Source: Thermosynechococcaceae cyanobacterium MS004
GTDB lineage: Bacteria > Cyanobacteriota > Cyanobacteriia > Thermosynechococcales > Thermosynechococcaceae
Direction: 5' to 3'
Length of the DNA: 64,000 nt
Assembly: GCA_022402525.1 (NCBI GenBank)
Contig: JAKRSB010000095.1
Coordinates: forward strand, 1 to 64,000
Part shown: positions 7,642 to 24,843 of the stretch, one piece after another
Position numbering within the stretch: the first letter of the stretch is position 1
Layout of the letters: every line of letters begins with the position of its first letter
Notes under the pieces: model-generated
What the model saw: the letters and a program-made list of their open reading frames with translations, nothing else
What the model was told of the DNA's origin: nothing
Databases searched by the model: none
Made by a program: the position numbers and the translations under genes

Positions 7642-7849
7642 AGCTCACGCTACGTTTAGGATTCCCCACTGCATCCGTCAGGTTGATCTGGGGACCAATC
7701 AATCTCATTAAATCTTCATAAAGGGCGCTGAAAGCTTCCTGATTGTGCTCCAAGCCTTTATACTCACGACAAACGCTTTGGCTTAGAGTTGGACTTGCTT
7801 GTTTTGAGATCTAGGTAGTGAGTATTAGGTAACGAGTATTAGTAAAGTT

Positions 7850-10574: not shown

Positions 10575-12875
10575 ATGAAGGCGTTTTCCCCTCAGCCCCG
10601 TCTCCAGCAGTGGATACAGCGCCTCGGTCAAAGACCTGACCAGGGCAGCGATCCGTATCCAGGGCAGCAATCTACAGGGCTGGCGATTGAAGATTCGGTT
10701 TGGCTCCGGATTTTTGTGCAGGCGTTGGTCAGTGTGGGTATTGTGGCGACCGATGTAGCCGCCACGACCCAGAGCGGCCTCTGGGCCATTCCCCTCAGCA
10801 TTGTGGGTGCAACCTGGAGCTGGTATTGTCGTCGTCGCCGCAATCTTTTGGCAAAGTTTGGCATTGCGGTTGGGATGCTGGGCGTTTTGGGTGTCTTTTT
10901 GTCCCAGCTTTTAGGCAATGCGGGTGACTCGCGTCTGTTGCTGGCGGGTCTGTTGATTCAGCTTCAGGTGCTGCACACCTTCGATATGCCCCGCCGCAAG
11001 GACTTGGGTTACTCTGCGGTGATTGGGCTGATCTTGATTGGGGTGGGGGCAACCATCAGCGAAACCATGGCCTTTGGTGGGTTCTTGGTGCTGTTTATGG
11101 CGATCGCCCTACCAGTATTGCTGCTGGACTACCGCTCTCGGCTGGGGTTAGGTGCGGTGCAGCTTCAGTCTTTGGGGGCAAAGGTTCCAAAACGCTTAGG
11201 GTTTTTATTGGTTGCGGTACTAGGGCTGGGGCTTTTGATTTTTGCCGTGACCCCTAGGCTACCGGGCTATCAGTTTCGGACATTTCCCGTAAGTGGTGAG
11301 GTAAACATTCAGGGAGAATTTGACCCTGGCAAAATTGTGAACCCAGGCTACCTGGGCGGAGCGAGAGGATCTGGGGCTGGCGGCAATGAAAGCCAAACGA
11401 TGGGGGCTGGCTCTACCCAAAGCTTTAGCTCTAAGTTTTACTACGGCTTCAATACGGAAATGAACCAAAATCTGCGGGGGAGCCTCACGCCTCAGGTGGT
11501 GATGCGGGTGCGCTCTCAATCAGAAGGGTTTTGGCGCGTCATGGCCTTTGATCAGTACACAGGGCAGGGCTGGAAGGTCTCACGAAATCTAAACTCAACT
11601 ATTTTGAAGCGGCCTCGCTGGTCCTATCGCTTCGTGGTGCCGCCCCTGTGGCCGCAAAATTACACGAAGGAAATTGTACAGACTTTCTCGATTTTGACGG
11701 AATTTCCGAATCTGCTACCCGCTCTCACCCAGGCCAGGGAAATCTATTTCCCCACCCAAGAAATTGCTCTGGATCCCGAAGGCGGGTTGCGATCGCCAGG
11801 GCCACTGGAAGAGGGTCTGACCTACTCGGTTGTGTCCGATGTACCCTACCGCGATCGCACTCGACTGAATCAGAGCTCGACTAAGTATCCAAAAACCGTT
11901 CGCCAAACCTACCTTCAAGTTCCCGAAGCTGTTTTACCCAAAATTCAGCAGCTCACCGAGGCGATGTTAGCCAAATCCGAGCGACCCCTGCTGACCCCCT
12001 ACGAAAAGTCGCTATTCCTGGCCCAAAGCCTTAAGCAGTCTTACCAGCTTCAGGCCGATATTCCTGCCCTAGAGCCAGGAGGAGATCTTGTCGAAGCCTT
12101 CCTCACCGACTGGAAAGGGGGCTATCCCGATCACTTTGCCTCAGCTTTGACCCTGATGCTGCGCTCCATTGGCATTCCAGCGCGCCTCGCCACAGGCTTT
12201 GCCTCCGGCGAATTTAACCCCTTTACGGGAATGCACGTGGTCAAAAATACAGACGCCCACGCCCTCACCGAAGTGTATTTCACCGGCAACGGCTGGTTTG
12301 CTTTTGATCCCATTCCAGGCCATAGCCTGTATCCGCCCTCTGTGGAGGTGGATCAAAGCTTCTCGGTTCTGCGCCAGTTCTGGAACTGGATTGCAGGATG
12401 GCTACCTTCCCCCGTTGCGGGATGGCTGAATGGGGCGATCGCATTTCTCGGCGAAGGGCTGAGTAAGATTCTGAGCTTATTTTCCCAAGGCTGGAGCGGC
12501 ATCCTTCAGCTCGTGTTCATCGCAGGCGGGCTGGGCGTTGGCCTGTGGGCTGCTTGGCAGGGTTGGCAGAGCTGGCGCGTCTTTTACTGGCTCCGCCAGA
12601 TGCCCCCTATGGCGCGGCTTTACCATCAAATGCTGCACTTCTTGGCCGAGCAGGGCATTCAAAAACACCCTTCTGAAACGCCTTTGGAGTATGCCAGACA
12701 GGTGAGCCGAGTCTATCCAGCGCATAAGGCTACCATCGTCCAGGAGCTGTCTCACGCCTACATGGCATGGCGATACGGGAGCGCTACGCCCGACCTTGGA
12801 CAGCTACAACAGCACTTTAAGCAACTCAAGCAAAAGGGCGACAGACCATCAACTACCGTAGCAAAAAGGGGCTAA
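10575..12875 (+). CDS. TgpA-like membrane protein, DUF3488 plus transglutaminase-like domain (catalytic Cys absent)
   Basis: A 766-residue membrane protein. The N-terminal third has about six or seven helices (residues ~45-230), followed by an extracytoplasmic transglutaminase-like domain (~400-590). A transmembrane helix near 640-660 and a C-terminal tail (PLEYARQVSRVYP) follow. TgpA-family enzymes carry a GYC(E/D)xFA motif with a catalytic Cys; here the aligned stretch is GGYPDHFASALTLMLRSIG, with Pro at the Cys position. The His (NTDAHALTEVYF) and Asp (FDPIPG) positions are kept. A cyanobacterial variant without Cys hydrolysis is therefore likely, perhaps structural. Its stop is about 100 bp from the first attC-like site of the integron. 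Confidence 0.88.
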   Translation: MKAFSPQPRLQQWIQRLGQRPDQGSDPYPGQQSTGLAIEDSVWLRIFVQALVSVGIVATDVAATTQSGLWAIPLSIVGATWSWYCRRRRNLLAKFGIAVGMLGVLGVFLSQLLGNAGDSRLLLAGLLIQLQVLHTFDMPRRKDLGYSAVIGLILIGVGATISETMAFGGFLVLFMAIALPVLLLDYRSRLGLGAVQLQSLGAKVPKRLGFLLVAVLGLGLLIFAVTPRLPGYQFRTFPVSGEVNIQGEFDPGKIVNPGYLGGARGSGAGGNESQTMGAGSTQSFSSKFYYGFNTEMNQNLRGSLTPQVVMRVRSQSEGFWRVMAFDQYTGQGWKVSRNLNSTILKRPRWSYRFVVPPLWPQNYTKEIVQTFSILTEFPNLLPALTQAREIYFPTQEIALDPEGGLRSPGPLEEGLTYSVVSDVPYRDRTRLNQSSTKYPKTVRQTYLQVPEAVLPKIQQLTEAMLAKSERPLLTPYEKSLFLAQSLKQSYQLQADIPALEPGGDLVEAFLTDWKGGYPDHFASALTLMLRSIGIPARLATGFASGEFNPFTGMHVVKNTDAHALTEVYFTGNGWFAFDPIPGHSLYPPSVEVDQSFSVLRQFWNWIAGWLPSPVAGWLNGAIAFLGEGLSKILSLFSQGWSGILQLVFIAGGLGVGLWAAWQGWQSWRVFYWLRQMPPMARLYHQMLHFLAEQGIQKHPSETPLEYARQVSRVYPAHKATIVQELSHAYMAWRYGSATPDLGQLQQHFKQLKQKGDRPSTTVAKRG

Positions 12876-12976: not shown

Positions 12977-13040
12977 GTCTAACGGCCTACGTATCAGCGG
13001 ACGGACTTGAACAAAAGCGCAGCTATAGCGGTGGTTAGAC
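12977..13040 (-). repeat. attC: attC-like site 1 (hicB cassette)
   Basis: 64 bp bounded by GTCTAAC and GTTAGAC. In cassette orientation these fit RYYYAAC and GTTRRRY. The plus-strand left arm CGGCCTACGTATCAGCGGAC resembles that of site 5. It lies 36 bp downstream of the hicB stop and is the last site of the array. Confidence 0.8.
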
Positions 13041-13076
13041 ACACCCAACAGATATCGTTATGCTGAATTCTAAACT

Positions 13077-13283
13077 CTAGGCATAGACTAATTTACCTTT
13101 TGGCTGAGGAATGAATCTACCTAGTTCCTGTGCTGTTTCAATCCACTCTTGCATAACGATTTGCACATTTTGCAAGGCTTCTACATAGGTTTCGCCATCA
13201 GCCACACAACCTGCAAGTTCTGGCACCTCAGCAACGAAAGATTTATCCTCTTCACTCCAGTAAATGATTACCTCATACTTCAT
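13077..13283 (-). CDS. hicB: Orphan HicB-family antitoxin (integron cassette 5)
   Basis: A 68-residue partial-RNase-H-fold HicB protein: MKYEVIIYWSEEDKSFVAEV, then PELAGCVADGETYVEALQNV, and a helix ending EWIETAQELG. In type II HicAB systems HicB neutralises the mRNA interferase HicA and represses the operon. No HicA-sized gene lies within the cassette (13,432 to 12,977) on either side, and no C-terminal ribbon-helix-helix or HTH extension is present, so this is a solitary short HicB. It may be a remnant, an anti-addiction antitoxin against a HicA elsewhere, or a repurposed protein. The ATG is at 13283 with AGAGGATAA upstream. Family call is firm, role open. Confidence 0.85.
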   Translation of the reverse strand: MKYEVIIYWSEEDKSFVAEVPELAGCVADGETYVEALQNVQIVMQEWIETAQELGRFIPQPKGKLVYA

Positions 13284-13425
13284 TATCCTCTTAGCCTCCC
13301 AGCTTGTATTTAAGAGGATGTTTGGAAGCAGCCTGCAATCCTTATAAAGAGTGACTTTGCTAAATAACGATGAGAACTCGCCAAACTTCCAAATGTCAAA
13401 GGTTCTAACTGTGTTTCCAAATATC

Positions 13426-13516
13426 CTCTAACGTTCCCAATCACCCGCCGCAGACAAACCTGAATCCAACAAACAAATAAACCCTTGTCGGTCGGTGTGC
13501 ATTGGGGTTGTTAGCT
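13426..13516 (-). repeat. attC: attC-like site 2 (transglutaminase-like cassette)
   Basis: 91 bp from CTCTAAC to GTTAGCT. The arms pair imperfectly (CCCAATCA-CCCGCC against the complement of GGTGTGCATTGGGG). The end core sites are less canonical than in the other sites. The TAA that would end the full-length transglutaminase frame lies inside its right core site. Confidence 0.7.
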
Positions 13517-14137
13517 GGCTGTCGCATACTCATTATGTATCACAAGGCCGTAGTTATTCGCGGATTCTAACGCAATGTCTGGAAGGTTACGAGCCATATC
13601 ATCCCATGTATCCTGTTCTTGCAGCGCCTCTACGATAATTTGAAGTGGCTCAGCAAAAATTGTCCTAAAGTCGGTTTCTTCAGCGAACTAAATGTTATAT
13701 GCTAACCGTTCTTGTGGTGGGGTAAACTGAGCGTTGACTCCTTCTTTATTGCCTCTAGCATCAACCCGATACCAACCGATCTCAGGAAAATGAATTGCAT
13801 TGAAACCGTGCAAACTATACGGCGCACCTTTATCATCAATACTCAATCGTTGATAACAAAACCCTGCTGGAATTTTGTTTGCGCGTAGCAATGCTGCTAA
13901 TAAATGGCTTTTAGCAAAGCAGTAACCTGTCTTGTATTTTAGAACCTCAGAAGCACGACAAGTTATAGGGTTCATCTGATAGTCAAAGCTGTGTCGAATC
14001 TCATCTCGCACCCACTCGAAGCAAGCTTTTGCGATCGCCATTGATGTTTTATGACCTGTTGCAATTTGTTTGGCAAGCTCGACGATTTCGGGATGTTGCC
14101 AATTAATAAATTCACTAGCTCTTAAGTATTCATCCAT
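13511..14137 (-). pseudogene. Transglutaminase-like protein with in-frame amber stop (cassette 4)
   Basis: The reading frame MDEYLRASEFINWQHPEIVE... is a small soluble transglutaminase-fold protein. The putative triad is Cys in TGYCFAKSHLLAALLR, His in SLHGFNAIHF and Asp in YRVDARGNKEG. Translation from ATG 14137 stops at TAG 13,688-13,690 after 149 codons. The same frame then runs 58 more codons (FAEETDFRTIFAEPLQIIVE ... TWDDMARNLPDIALES) to TAA at 13,511-13,513. From memory of the family, full-length members end in a similar block (ADFPEI.AEPL.IVVEAL....NLPDI), so the stop looks like a nonsense mutation. The truncated 149-residue product still holds the triad and might fold. The upstream in-frame extension to 14,215 abuts attC site 3 and is unlikely to be used. 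Confidence 0.75.
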
Positions 14138-14219
14138 GTTAACTGCCCAAATACTGCAAGTCAATTCAAAGCGACTGACCGATAACTTCAAAGTACTGCT
14201 ATTATCCAGACACAAAGCC

Positions 14220-14305
14220 AGCTAACGGTTGCGGTCAGCGGCTGCAAAGAACTTGAACTCAGCTCCAGCGGTTTCCTCCAATCCGTTGCACCGCGATTGT
14301 TAGAC
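14220..14305 (-). repeat. attC: attC-like site 3 (DUF4145 cassette)
   Basis: 86 bp from AGCTAAC to GTTAGAC. The left arm GGTTGCGGTCAGCGG pairs imperfectly with the right arm CCGTTGCACCGCGATT. It lies 45 bp downstream of the DUF4145 stop. Confidence 0.8.
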
Positions 14306-14349
14306 TGCTCCACAGCACGCAAGACGACTATAATAACGGCTTATTTTAT

Positions 14350-15036
14350 TCATTTTTGTCTGGCTTCTGCTTCTTTTTTCTCTTTCAAGCGATTGAGCTT
14401 CTCTTCTGCTTTTTCTACGAGATACGGAGCATTGTAGACATACTCTAGAATAGCTTTACACAAGTCATCTAGAATAGGAATCTCCTCACGGGTCAATTCT
14501 CCAAGAGAAGCATGAGCACCAAAGTTGCGTAGCTGCCTTAAACTATCAGCGACTCCCACCAATTTATCTGGAATTTCGCCTTTCGCAGCTAGGTCGCTGA
14601 GTTTGTTATACAGATCTTTTCCTGTAGCTTGACGGTCTTCACATATCATCTCTAAGATCCGTCCTATAAGGACTGCATACGCATTAGCATCAATAACTCG
14701 AACTTTAAGTGCTATTTCATACGCGCGCTGAATTTGAGAAGGCAATCCAGATAATCTTAATGCTGCTGGTGGGTAAAGAGTTTCTACTCTAATATCTTCA
14801 CCATCCATATAGTCAGCATCAAAGTATTTCCATAAAGTTACTTCTTTACAAGCTAGACATAGCAATAATCTATGATGGTATCCTTCTTCCGGCTGAGGAT
14901 TATAATATTCATCATACGGGTCTTCATAAGTAGATTTTATGGATAAGTAATATTCAGCCACAATATCCATTGGAGCGCGATTCCCACAATGACCACATTG
15001 CAAAAACTCTGTAGTTTTTCGCTTCGCTTTAGCCAT
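14350..15036 (-). CDS. DUF4145-domain protein with zinc-ribbon-like N-terminus (cassette 3)
   Basis: 228 residues. The N-terminus has two Cys pairs (CGHC near residue 14 and CLAC near 60) that could bind zinc. The helical C-terminal two thirds carry the DUF4145 signature: AYEIALKVRVIDANAYAVLI, RILEMICEDRQATGK, LADSLRQLRNFGAHA-type (here VADSLRQLRNFGAHAS) and a late DLCKAILEYVY. The C-terminus is a charged coiled-coil-like helix (KAEEKLNRLKEKKEAEARQK). DUF4145 occurs alone and fused to restriction or nuclease proteins; its activity is unknown to me. It is complete and occupies one cassette. The ATG at 15036 is the only sensible start. A defence role is possible but is only inference. Confidence 0.8.
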   Translation of the reverse strand: MAKAKRKTTEFLQCGHCGNRAPMDIVAEYYLSIKSTYEDPYDEYYNPQPEEGYHHRLLLCLACKEVTLWKYFDADYMDGEDIRVETLYPPAALRLSGLPSQIQRAYEIALKVRVIDANAYAVLIGRILEMICEDRQATGKDLYNKLSDLAAKGEIPDKLVGVADSLRQLRNFGAHASLGELTREEIPILDDLCKAILEYVYNAPYLVEKAEEKLNRLKEKKEAEARQK

Positions 15037-15125
15037 AGATTTACCGTTGTCTACCTATTGTATTTCGCAACTAAACTACATTTTGCGCAAGTAACTTCCA
15101 GTGCCTTTCTCCAGGCATCTTGGCA

Positions 15126-15216
15126 GTCTAACGGTCGGCTATCAGGGACGTGAGCAGAAGTGAAAAAGCTTCACGGATAGTTTGATTCGAGCGTTCCTTG
15201 CACAGTATTGTTAGAC
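15126..15216 (-). repeat. attC: attC-like site 4 (DUF3800 cassette)
   Basis: 91 bp from GTCTAAC to GTTAGAC. The arms CAGGGACG and CGTTCCTTG pair with unpaired extra bases on one side, the asymmetry expected of attC hairpins. Confidence 0.8.
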
Positions 15217-15286
15217 TTGAGCACTGATTTGACAAGAAATAAAAGGTTATAAGAAATTACTTGAAAAACTGAAGGTAAAAATTGCA

Positions 15287-16150
15287 TCAAAATTCATTTT
15301 TCGTTGGAGCTGTATCCATTTCATGTTGTGGCATGTAATGCCAGAAATTAATGGGATTATTGGGATTAGGCGTTTGAAGATATCGATTCGATTTAAGACT
15401 AACACCTAACTTTCTACTCTTACAGCCATGATCAAAGTATTGAAGAATTGGGAAGCGATGTTCTTCCGCACGACTCAGTTGAGGTTGCTCTCCAGGAAAC
15501 AGAGGAAGGCTAGGATTAGTAAATTCACACCATTTCTCATAAAGATCATAATGGGTTCGAGAGAAAATACTCAAGCCTGCGAATAGATCCGCAATTTGGC
15601 AACAGGGTTCTGTATGGGATTGAACTTCTTTGCAGTCGGCAATACAATAATGAGGATCACTGAAAAAGCTACCGAATAATGGCAGATGAAAAAGCTCTCT
15701 GCGTTGACCACGAGCATCAATACATTGAGTCACAACCTCCCAGTTAACTCCAACTCCTTCATCAGGATATATTTTCCAGATTAGTGATTTTGGGCGACGC
15801 TTGAGAGCATTTGAATGCAAATGATAAAACATTCTTTCATAATTTGCGATGTCATCCCGATTTCTGATCTGATGACGAGAGTCATTGATATTCCAGATGA
15901 CTACGTCCACACGTGCATCGTCAGTTTCGATAAGTTCCCATACAGCATCAATTAGTTTCTGAGCACAGAACCGATATTTTGCATCTTTCAACTTCTGCCA
16001 TTTAAACTCACCTACATTTGATTCTTCAAGTAGTGTATTCAAGTTTGAATTTATCTGTGGCAGGTTGTCAGACCTTAGAGAGAAAGCAGCAATACTATTA
16101 AAGCCACTATCTCTTGAATAGCTCTCGTCTGCGAATGAAACATACTGCAT
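15287..16150 (-). CDS. DUF3800-domain protein (cassette 2)
   Basis: 287 residues from ATG 16150. DUF3800 proteins have an RNase-H-like fold and acidic residues that suggest metal-dependent nuclease activity. Here the opening MQYVSFADESYSRDSGFNSI supplies the SxDES-type motif. A central stretch YERMFYHLHSNALKRRPKSL and DEGVG follow, and the C-terminal part CQIADLFAGLSIFSRTHYD carries the conserved Asp. Upstream in-frame codons to 16,246 run through attC site 5 and so cannot belong to the gene. The start sits 21 bp from the cassette joint, typical of integron cassettes, which have little leader. DUF3800 genes are frequent in mobile and phage-defence settings; no function is shown here. Confidence 0.8.
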   Translation of the reverse strand: MQYVSFADESYSRDSGFNSIAAFSLRSDNLPQINSNLNTLLEESNVGEFKWQKLKDAKYRFCAQKLIDAVWELIETDDARVDVVIWNINDSRHQIRNRDDIANYERMFYHLHSNALKRRPKSLIWKIYPDEGVGVNWEVVTQCIDARGQRRELFHLPLFGSFFSDPHYCIADCKEVQSHTEPCCQIADLFAGLSIFSRTHYDLYEKWCEFTNPSLPLFPGEQPQLSRAEEHRFPILQYFDHGCKSRKLGVSLKSNRYLQTPNPNNPINFWHYMPQHEMDTAPTKNEF

Positions 16151-16170
16151 GTGACTCAAATAATTGTGAG

Positions 16171-16259
16171 GTCTAACGGCCTCTGCATCAGCGGACGGCG
16201 ATACAAAATAAGCGTGGAGATAGAGTTGCAATCCGTTCCGTTGCATGCAGTAGTTAGAC
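16171..16259 (-). repeat. attC: attC-like site 5 (first cassette)
   Basis: 89 bp from GTCTAAC to GTTAGAC, the best-formed site. CTGCATCAGCGGACGG on the left pairs with the complement of CCGTTCCGTTGCATGCAG on the right, leaving two single extrahelical bases on one strand. Such bases mark the attC bottom strand for the recombinase. Confidence 0.85.
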
Positions 16260-16359: not shown

Positions 16360-16686
16360 CTACTTCAGCTTTTGCTTGAGTAAGCTAGTAATTAACCCTT
16401 TCGCACGTCGTACAAACTCCTCTTCAGTCTCATCTTCAGATGGAGTGCCAAGTTCATTGCTTAGTTCAGCAATAAATCCTTCGCTATGAGCCAAGTTACT
16501 AACTTTTTGGCTAAACTTTTCCCGATCATCATCAGGAAAAAGGCTTCCATTTGAGAGAACAGTGCCTATTAAGGCTGTTGAAATTGTAGTTGTCGAGATA
16601 TATGCAGACTGGAGCGCAGGCGGCAGGGACTTATCAGGGTTCTCTCCAGAATCGAAAAATTCTTTGAAGCTTTTAGGTGTGCTCAT
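16360..16686 (-). CDS. Hypothetical protein, second ORF of cassette 1
   Basis: 108 residues beginning MSTPKSFKEFFDSGENPDKS, mostly hydrophilic. A short Ala/Thr/Ile-rich stretch (YISTTTISTALIGTVLSNGS, about residues 29-48) could form a hydrophobic hairpin. The C-terminal half is acidic (LGTPSEDETEEEFVRRAKGL) and ends in basic LLKQKLK. I recognise no family. Its ATG overlaps the stop of the upstream 49-codon ORF by ATGA, so translation is probably coupled. Together they form the first cassette next to the presumed attI, the best-expressed position of an integron. Small two-gene cassettes are often toxin-antitoxin pairs, but nothing here proves that. Confidence 0.6.
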   Translation of the reverse strand: MSTPKSFKEFFDSGENPDKSLPPALQSAYISTTTISTALIGTVLSNGSLFPDDDREKFSQKVSNLAHSEGFIAELSNELGTPSEDETEEEFVRRAKGLITSLLKQKLK

Positions 16687-16971: not shown

Positions 16972-16978
16972 GTCTAAC
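16972..16978 (-). other. attI: Candidate attI core / first cassette joint
   Basis: On the minus strand this is GTTAGAC, the GTTRRRY core expected where attI joins the first cassette. It lies between the broken integrase and cassette 1, with no gene between. Assignment rests on position and the 7-base core only. Confidence 0.45.
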
Positions 16979-16982
16979 TATA

Positions 16983-17178
16983 CATAGACGGGCAACATCC
17001 ACCTATATCGTCTAATCTGGCATATAGACGGATAGTTGTCCATCCATAACCCTTTTGGTATATAGGCGTATAGCATCTACCCATATACCTGTTTGAGTCG
17101 TTTAAACGGACGCATCCAACCATATCCCCGTTTCCGGCATATAGATGGATAGGTATCCACCCATATCGCTTTCCTGAC
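16983..17178. repeat. About five degenerate 39-bp tandem repeats
   Basis: A unit of 38-40 bp recurs about five times; its clearest element is CATATAGACGG (variants TATATAGGCG, TTTAAACGG, CATATAGATGG), followed by CATCCACCCATAT-like sequence. The repeats are bounded by GTCTAAC (16,972-16,978) and GTTTAGAC (17,180-17,187). They fill the interval where attI and the cassette promoter would lie. The minus strand is open for 71 codons because the repeat length is near a multiple of three, but that frame looks incidental. Confidence 0.7.
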
Positions 17179-17277
17179 TGTTTAGACAAATAATTTCAGT
17201 ATTTTTCGGATGTCGAACTCATCAACTCTTTTTACTATTACTGTCAATACCTTTGCATTTCTTTGAGTTTTGACATA

Positions 17278-17520
17278 GTTGAGCAGTCCAAAAAGATTTT
17301 GGATCAGTTGCGTGATGTCCTTCGCCTTAATCATGATTCTTGCCGCACTGAGCAGTCTTATGGGGACTGGGATGAGGTTTATCGTGTTTCACAATAAACC
17401 TCATCCCAAAGACATGGGTGCGTCTGAATGGGTGCGCCAGAAATTGAGGCTTTTTTGAGTTATCTTGCTGTTCAAAGAAAGGTTGCGGCGTCTACTCAAA
17501 ACTAAGCCCTTAGCGCCTTA
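17278..17520 (+). pseudogene. intI: Integron-type tyrosine recombinase (IntI), N-terminal remnant
   Basis: Translated piecewise this gives KKILDQLRDVLRLNHDSCRT EQSYGDW in one frame, then HNKPHPKDMGAS in the next, then APEIEAFLSYLAVQRKVAAS TQN, a stop, and ALSAL. These match in order the N-terminal SAM-like core-binding domain of IntI-type integrases (typically ...LLDQVRD.IR..HYS.RTEQ.Y.DW..RFI.FH.KRHP..MGA.EIEAFLTHLAV...VAASTQNQALSAL). Lesions: about 2 bases missing after GDW (leading to TAA at 17,393), a 14-bp imperfect tandem duplication (ATGGGTGCGTCTGA / ATGGGTGCGCCAGA), Gln to TAA in TQNQ, and loss of everything after about residue 80 at an IS982 fragment. The catalytic domain is absent, so it is inactive. 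Confidence 0.88.
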
Positions 17521-17708
17521 ATGGCCCGTTTGCGCAGCAAAACCTTGTCCATAAGCTTCACAAGGCTATTTCCTATATTCTTGCGCCGACGCGCAATCAG
17601 CTCCAAGCCTTGGGCATCAAACTGCTCAAACAACAGTTGCGAGACATAACCGCGATCGCCCAAGAGCTTACCCAATAGCCCTATTCCGGTCGAACTCATG
17701 TCGGTCAA
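17521..17708 (-). pseudogene. IS982-family transposase fragment
   Basis: Encodes GLLGKLLGDRGYVSQLLFEQ, then a basic segment with RRRKN and LMDKVLLRKRAI. This is the block around the second catalytic Asp (GDRGY) of IS982 transposases. The N- and C-terminal parts and the IS ends are missing. The right-hand reading frame (KALRA) is sequence of the neighbouring intI remnant, so the two are fused at about 17,520. A partial MITE-like repeat abuts the other end. Confidence 0.8.
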
Positions 17709-17775
17709 AAATCAACCTTCTTAAGCCCCTCGCTTTTGGAAGAGGAGTTTGGGTGAGGGGCTTTGCATCATCTCA
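17709..17775 (-). repeat. MITE-like dispersed repeat, copy D (partial)
   Basis: Carries the AATCAACCTTCTTAAGCCCC ... GGGTGAGGGGCTT half of the element, same orientation as copy A, and ends in a diverged CATCTCACGC. It sits between the IS982 fragment and the response-regulator gene. Confidence 0.65.
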
Positions 17776-24327: not shown

Positions 24328-24371
24328 ACTTAATGAGGTAATCTCGAAGACTTAACGAGGTAATCTCGAAG
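24328..24371. repeat. 22-bp tandem repeat x2 at the ferredoxin 3' end
   Basis: ACTTAATGAGGTAATCTCGA- and ACTTAACGAGGTAATCTCGA- lie head to tail. The second copy contains the last codons and stop of the ferredoxin gene, so the duplication arose from the gene end. Confidence 0.7.
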
Positions 24372-24843
24372 ACTTTGCCCGACGTTGTCTGTTTGCAGCC
24401 GCATCCACCGCAGAACCAGGCAGCGTAATCACCTGATCCTGACGCTCTAGCTCTAGCTGCTTGAGCTGGGTGTAGTCTACCCAATGGATACAGTCTACGG
24501 GGCAGGTATCGATCGCCTCCTGCACCACCTCTTCTGCGTCTCCATCCTGGCGAAAAACCCGCGATCGCCCGTAGCTTTCTTCAATAAAAAACGTATTGCG
24601 CGCCACCAGGGCACAGTGGCGACAGCCAATACAGGTTACTTCATCCACGTAGACCCCGCGCTGGCGAAATGCTCCGCCTAGCTCCGGCTCTAGGCCGGAG
24701 CGCTGCACCGCGTCTCGCAGCCGACCGCCTAACTCTGGCTCAGCCCCAGTCCGCAAGTCAGACAGGCGATCGCTATCTAATCCGCGATCGCTATTTAGTC
24801 CGCGATCGCTATCTAATCCGCGATCGCTGTTTACCCCAGACAC
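24352..24843 (-). CDS. 4Fe-4S ferredoxin with repeat-encoded N-terminal extension
   Basis: 163 residues. A single 4Fe-4S cluster is predicted from CIGCRHC (about residues 75-81) and the distant CPVDCIHWV (about 114-122). The GTG start at 24843 overlaps the TAG of the upstream ycf35 by one base, so the genes are translationally coupled. The first 30 residues are SDRGLDSDRGLNSDRGLD, encoded by four 18-bp repeats each containing HIP1 (24,766-24,837); this is an unusual addition before the conserved core. A second duplication (PELGGRLRDAVQ / PELGGAFRQRG) follows. The role is electron transfer, partner unknown. The constant neighbours are Ycf35 and a DUF2997 protein, an association common in cyanobacteria. 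Confidence 0.88.
   Translation of the reverse strand: MSGVNSDRGLDSDRGLNSDRGLDSDRLSDLRTGAEPELGGRLRDAVQRSGLEPELGGAFRQRGVYVDEVTCIGCRHCALVARNTFFIEESYGRSRVFRQDGDAEEVVQEAIDTCPVDCIHWVDYTQLKQLELERQDQVITLPGSAVDAAANRQRRAKSSRLPR
24766..24837. repeat. 18-bp HIP1-containing tandem repeat x4
   Basis: GCGATCGCTATCTAATCC and close variants, four copies in frame with the ferredoxin N-terminus. Confidence 0.9.

Follow-up and report, generated by a model that had tools for sequence, protein, structure and literature searches.

The intI relic

At positions 17275–17520 (plus strand) of the window, the 64,000-nt stretch of contig JAKRSB010000095.1 analysed here, the 5′ third (~80 codons) of an integron integrase gene (intI) is preserved as a pseudogene (the window copy), with a cassette attachment region (attI) and an array of gene cassettes on its left and a fragment of an insertion sequence on its right. 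The gene was recognized by a match to TIGR02249 (E=4.6e-12) in a profile search of the entire genome, by three-frame translation, and by alignment with five sister copies and the intact intI of a relative (L072). As stated in the original prediction, the N-terminal domain of IntI can be read through changes of frame: the frame starting at 17275 yields IVEQSKKILDQLRDVLRLNHDSCRTEQSYGDWDEVYR, the next one, entered after a 2-nt deficit at ~17372–17377, yields FIVFHNKPHPKDMGASEW, and the first frame, restored past a 14-bp duplication, yields EIEAFLSYLAVQRKVAASTQN, which ends at a stop codon.

The start codon ATG is changed to ATA (17275–17277, plus strand), as evident from three-frame translation and the alignment with sister copies; this change was missing from the lesion list of the original prediction. 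The lesions which that list did contain were recovered on the plus strand: frame is lost at 17372–17377 by a deficit of 2 nt accompanied by local changes (ATGAGG versus TTTATYGC in the sister copies), a 14-bp imperfect tandem duplication (12/14 identical) comprises 17414–17427 (ATGGGTGCGTCTGA) and 17428–17441 (ATGGGTGCGCCAGA), and a Gln codon CAA is converted to the stop TAA at 17503–17505 (TQN followed by stop). A Gln codon occupies the latter position in L002, L004 and L005, and the same TAA is present in L003 (C74). Deletion and duplication together amount to a net shift of +12 and thus return to the original frame, as calculated before; both are private to the window copy in the alignment with the five sister copies and the intact relative.

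Homology to IntI stops at 17520, where homology to an IS982 transposase begins on the minus strand, in agreement with the truncation proposed earlier. The adjoining piece is an internal fragment of an IS982-family transposase gene (17520–17681, minus strand; PF13612, E=5e-14; NF033520 IS982, E=1.7e-10) and corresponds to residues 10–63 of the ORF at 17502–17708. Since the catalytic C-terminal domain (Arg, His, Tyr) is missing, the window copy is classed as a pseudogene of the IntI family and not as a working member. The IntI-specific additional domain (patch) was likewise removed by the truncation; it is found in the near-complete copy L007 and in the intact proteins L072 and L009. A repeat with a GCCCCTC…GAGGGGC hairpin is located at 17682–17772 of the window, and several more occur near the integron remnants L033, L034 and L036; in L006 this repeat directly adjoins the truncated intI.

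Cassette array and genomic setting

Two things were absent from the original prediction: the context of the relic (attI, the cassettes with their five attC sites, and the sister copies) and some of the sequence of events. Searching with a custom pattern of paired R and L boxes, in a strict and then a relaxed form and complemented by reading of the gaps between genes, revealed five attC sites (12977–16259) in one orientation, which delimit five outward-facing cassettes; no further site was found in the remainder of the window. The strict search returned a single plus-strand site in the 64 kb, and five randomised sequences gave no match. Judged by the attC pattern (RYYYAAC…GTTRRRY with paired L boxes), the five qualify as attC sites between cassettes. 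A covariance model (R1) was built from sites 1–4, which score 54–72 bits, and recovered the held-out site 5 (24.9 bits, E=2.4e-4). On the plus strand, the sites locate at 16171–16259 (site 1, end of cassette 1; found by the R/L-box search; 61.6 bits), 15126–15216 (site 2; 59.3 bits), 14220–14305 (site 3; 71.9 bits), 13426–13515 (site 4; 53.9 bits) and 12977–13040 (site 5, closing the array on its outer side; found by the relaxed search). Genome-wide, at least 35 attC sites were detected at E<1e-3, with those beside intI copies located on the strand of intI. About six or seven attC sites each are present in G000 on C115 (L228) and C125 (L229), where no intI was detectable nearby (CALIN-like).

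Each cassette harbours one main ORF, and all five are encoded on the minus strand, pointing away from intI: a 108-aa protein of no family (cassette 1, 16360–16686), a 319-aa DUF3800-like protein scoring slightly below the Pfam cut-off (cassette 2, 15287–16246), a 228-aa DUF4145 protein (cassette 3, 14350–15036), a 175-aa transglutaminase-like protein (cassette 4, 13688–14215) and a 68-aa HicB-like antitoxin (cassette 5, 13077–13283). The true start of the cassette 2 ORF may be further in, since its listed start lies inside attC site 1. The proteins of cassettes 2 and 3 have weak PADLOC matches to anti-phage candidates (PDC-M04A and PD-T7-4, respectively).

The gene to the left of the array (766 aa, 10575–12875) is conserved in 10 of the 11 relatives searched. 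Neither attC nor intI was found beside it in the nine relatives' loci read, so the integron appears to be lineage-specific at this place; the gene flanking it on the right is not retained there, which limits how far these loci may be called empty sites. An intact orthologue with the same flanking genes, the check suggested with the original prediction, was not found in these relatives. By the conserved gene at its left and the 182-kb contig, the integron does not qualify as a mobile one borne on a transposon or plasmid, and PLSDB yielded partial matches only, none of them spanning most of the integron. Further to the right, a ferredoxin-like ORF (24352–24843, minus strand) has an N-terminus (24669–24843) built of repeated SDRGL units.

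The attI region

The attI crossover core GTCTAAC (inverse GTTAGAC) lies at 16972–16978 (plus strand), the boundary between attI and the first cassette, and comparison of near-identical copies supports the crossover position. In three near-identical pairs (G007, G034 and G000 C72), identity is 100 % over 120 nt to the right of AAC versus 27–40 % over 60 nt to the left. Identity thus breaks exactly at AAC, the position at which IntI joins a cassette to attI, and the crossover is naturally marked. The break might also have been produced by the intI module moving itself through core-site recombination; this was rejected, as the attC sites showed a break at AAC to be the ordinary outcome of cassette capture. 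The right-hand ends of the intI modules have no common boundary.

From the core, attI extends on the plus strand as an array of ~42-bp imperfect palindromes (16976–17195; ATATAGRCGGA…TCCRYCTATAT) with folding z of -3.1 and -5.2 on the two strands; it contains one unit fewer than the sister copies. A leader (17196–17274, plus strand) connects the array to the intI start, and the motif TGTCAA (TTGACA on the minus strand) is present here in the sister copies and L072. The number of ~42-bp units varies between copies, and their arms repeat the box beside the crossover; in L072 the array spans 1680–1955. In copy L004 (L032, ~7658–7836), the attI array harbours an insertion of ~180 bp bounded by the inverted GAACCCATTT/AAATGGGTTC, similar to a small transposable element. 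Palindromes serving as recombinase core sites with a fixed centre were considered and rejected, their centres measuring 2 to ~14 nt.

Here and class-wide, a core (R)YYYAAC is located upstream of intI, mostly followed by TA and then by palindromic units. Tandem palindromic attI units precede intI in most cyanobacterial loci. Cyanobacterial attI is strongly structured: for 56 named loci in which sufficient sequence precedes intI, this preceding region has a mean folding z of -3.4 versus -0.2 in a control region (1.25–1.5 kb upstream) and -1.1 downstream. No preference of the attI fold for one strand was detected (mean z -3.87 versus -3.88). The arms of the first hairpin co-vary (TTAGAC/GTCTAA versus TTATAC/GTATAA) across 32 loci of cyanobacteria and Chloroflexi, with a score of 0.165 versus 0.101 in shuffles (0 of 500 reach 0.165) and at most 0.119 when slid; a left-arm sequence pattern was partly used to pick these loci, and counts of this kind are inflated by relatedness. 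Covariation is expected both from a folded strand and from paired boxes to which two IntI molecules bind, because either keeps the arms matched. The attI start RYYYAACTA…TTAkACnGAA is common to loci labelled Chloroflexi and to many cyanobacterial intI (L168, L179, L181 and L191 beside L152, L154 and L162); this type of attI may travel with intI between phyla, or it may be old.

Sister copies and order of decay

The attI-intI module is present in the genome in six copies or more, all with decayed intI and with unrelated cassettes. Five of them are close copies of the window module (80–88 % nucleotide identity); in total, 18 matches to IntI profiles were obtained genome-wide, and a single gene is intact (C140, 324 aa). 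The segment shared by the window copy and its close copies is essentially 16974–17520, beyond which cassettes and right-hand flanks differ and only similar attC sites and a dispersed repeat are held in common. An intact relative is found in the same genus: the MAG Acaryochloridaceae cyanobacterium RU_4_10 encodes a 322-aa IntI (L072), preceded by the same type of array, with attC upstream. In L036, two attC sites of equal score (10717–10803 and 11467–11553) lie 750 bp apart, possibly representing a duplicated cassette and hence a trace of recent integrase activity.

In a tree of the copies, L006 (C146:107.5 kb) is the partner of the window copy, with a support of 0.94. Nine sites unite these two against the other four copies, including the ATA start, a Val-to-Gly and an Arg-to-Pro change; four of the nine also occur in the attI of G002 (L092) and may represent the ancestral and not a derived state, but the ATA start, like both missense changes, is not one of these four. 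As the latter three are common to L006, decay began before the window copy and L006 separated, and their distribution in the sequences indicates that the module was duplicated after the first lesions had occurred. The proposal that the lesions may have accumulated in either order therefore holds only for the -2 deletion relative to the +14 duplication; the loss of the start codon is older than both because ATA is shared with the sister copy and the -2 and +14 changes are unique to the window copy. Common descent of the TAA in L003 and the window copy was rejected, since the tree joins the window copy with L006; this TAA is most readily explained by gene conversion or a parallel change.

Distribution of truncated intI

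A survey of intI relics in 156 genomes of the class (at least 50 % identity; obvious contig-start cases removed) yielded at least 61 sites retaining only the N-terminal 90 aa versus 18 retaining only the C-terminal 91 aa; without the window's own genome, the numbers are at least 53 versus 17. A naive binomial test gives p=1e-6, a value to be read with the reservations that neither copies sharing a genome nor genomes of related organisms are independent of one another and that far-side contig ends were left in. L232, L233 and L236 keep attI arrays and upstream attC, and the stretch read at each of them contains no detectable intI. Identity between copies amounts to 78–90 % in attI versus 85–95 % in the intI stretch, the latter among copies spanning it. 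Identity of attI is thus no higher than that of intI, which gives no hint that attI is under stronger selection than the dead gene.

Interpretation of the relic

We consider the feature to be the intI relic of a chromosomal integron, with a probability of about 0.93. That the remnant could descend from a different tyrosine recombinase (XerC/D-like or a phage integrase) is suggested by the SAM-like N-terminal domain, which is common to the superfamily, and by weak matches of the sister copies to XerA, XerC and XerD. The assignment to IntI made in the original prediction is nevertheless borne out, and the refuting condition named with it, an alignment favouring IntI no more than unrelated tyrosine recombinases, did not come true: the sister copies match IntI models at E=1e-21 to 3e-32 versus 1e-4 to 8e-3 for XerA, the best non-IntI model, i.e., a lead of at least 17 orders of magnitude, the corresponding values for the near-complete copy L007 are 1.4e-49 and 8.9e-11, the IntI-specific patch is present in this near-complete sister lineage, and attI and attC sites adjoin the relic, all of which makes a different recombinase highly improbable. 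A broken gene simulated by assembly or sequencing errors is conceivable in a draft genome of 150 contigs; the truncation at an IS fragment, the different damage seen in five additional copies and the shared ATA start are hard to reconcile with random errors and render this explanation negligible. Equally far-fetched is a gene functioning via frameshifting, or a regulatory N-terminal fragment: the -2 and +14 changes do bring the frame back, but the start codon is lost, an in-frame TAA follows, the catalytic domain is wholly absent and the lesions differ from copy to copy.

Less clear-cut is why attI and the adjoining end of intI persist beside the cassettes. They may simply be a decaying gene without a role, 5′ relics being numerous because deletions from the 3′ side spare the selected cassettes; a 3′ deletion would be free of cost, and a 5′ deletion running on may take cassette 1. 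Such plain neglect agrees with the absence of a detected promoter and with the similar divergence of attI and intI between copies. Against it stand the class-wide 5′ bias, which requires some cost on the 5′ side, and the survival of attI arrays where intI is undetectable, and its probability falls just short of one half. Perhaps the retained attI and intI end still serves the cassettes, a role to which we assign about even odds against neglect. The 5′ end of intI might hold a cassette promoter, by analogy with class 1 integrons; no sigma-70-type match was found in the retained outward stretch of the window copy, though cyanobacterial promoters may differ, and with no promoter found a role in expression is a guess.

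Proposed history and significance

The cassettes would have been captured while IntI was active, the folded attC strand being joined to attI at the GTT/AAC core. Decay of intI could then have proceeded in steps: the start codon and two missense changes would have arisen in the ancestor of the window copy and the copy at C146:107.5 kb, followed later by the -2 and +14 changes, the stop codon and a deletion beside an IS982 element that removed the remainder of the gene. The window integron would be inactive in cis, and any change in it would require an intact IntI working in trans, for which the C140 protein, the sole intact one found in the genome, could serve. If attI and the adjoining intI end were kept because they still serve the cassettes, they would do so either by offering a site for docking in trans or by acting as an upstream expression region. 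The idea of action in trans is weakened by the C140 IntI belonging to another lineage and having an attI without hairpin array.

A more general reading would be that cyanobacterial integrons possess a distinct class of attI, in which the core is followed by hairpins (one, or several in tandem) or by paired boxes for IntI binding, and that such genomes keep many attI platforms without an integrase of their own, fed or expressed in trans, with intI being dispensable and decaying from its distal end while attI stays. We regard this generalization as speculative and rather doubtful. Knowledge on integrons derives mostly from proteobacteria and from antibiotic resistance. The present genome represents a natural experiment with several platform copies, dead integrases in all of them and cassettes near most, and it makes two questions testable, namely whether several platforms are served in trans by one integrase, and what role the hairpin array has. 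The weak anti-phage similarity of cassette genes hints at the content stored.

Comparison with known integrons

Integrons have already been described in cyanobacteria, and their attC sites are known well enough for a dedicated model (PMC8352920). About one third of surveyed intI genes are pseudogenes with stops or frameshifts ('pseudo-integrons'), and more than one fifth of integron-bearing lineages carry more than one intI (PMC2426708). Compared with these pseudo-integrons, a partial order of the lesions can be derived in the present case from the sister copies. Cyanobacterial integrons and intI pseudogenes are known; the hairpin attI, like the 5′ bias, is to be seen as a lead to a possible function. 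A literature search with partial journal coverage retrieved no account of a hairpin attI or of 5′ bias in cyanobacteria, which due to this coverage is only weak evidence of novelty.

In clinical class 1 integrons, intI1 may be truncated at an insertion sequence with the attI side kept, and the IS-truncated intI described here likewise retains its attI side. Class 1 integrons carry the cassette promoter inside intI1; unlike there, no such promoter was found inside the intI stretch of the window. In the attI1 site, about six bases separate the core GTTRRRY from an inverted L-type box, an arrangement resembling GTCTAA-N6-GTTRRRY on the minus strand of the relatives studied here. At ~65 bp, attI1 contains two direct-repeat accessory sites, in contrast to the ~70–290 nt with repeated palindromes of the present attI. 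The locus is read as a sedentary chromosomal integron, and with this known type it shares an IntI remnant, an attI core, attC R and L boxes and outward-facing cassette genes mostly without known function; it differs from that type in that a single genome contains one attI-intI module six times or more, never with an intact intI, and in that attI carries a tandem hairpin array.
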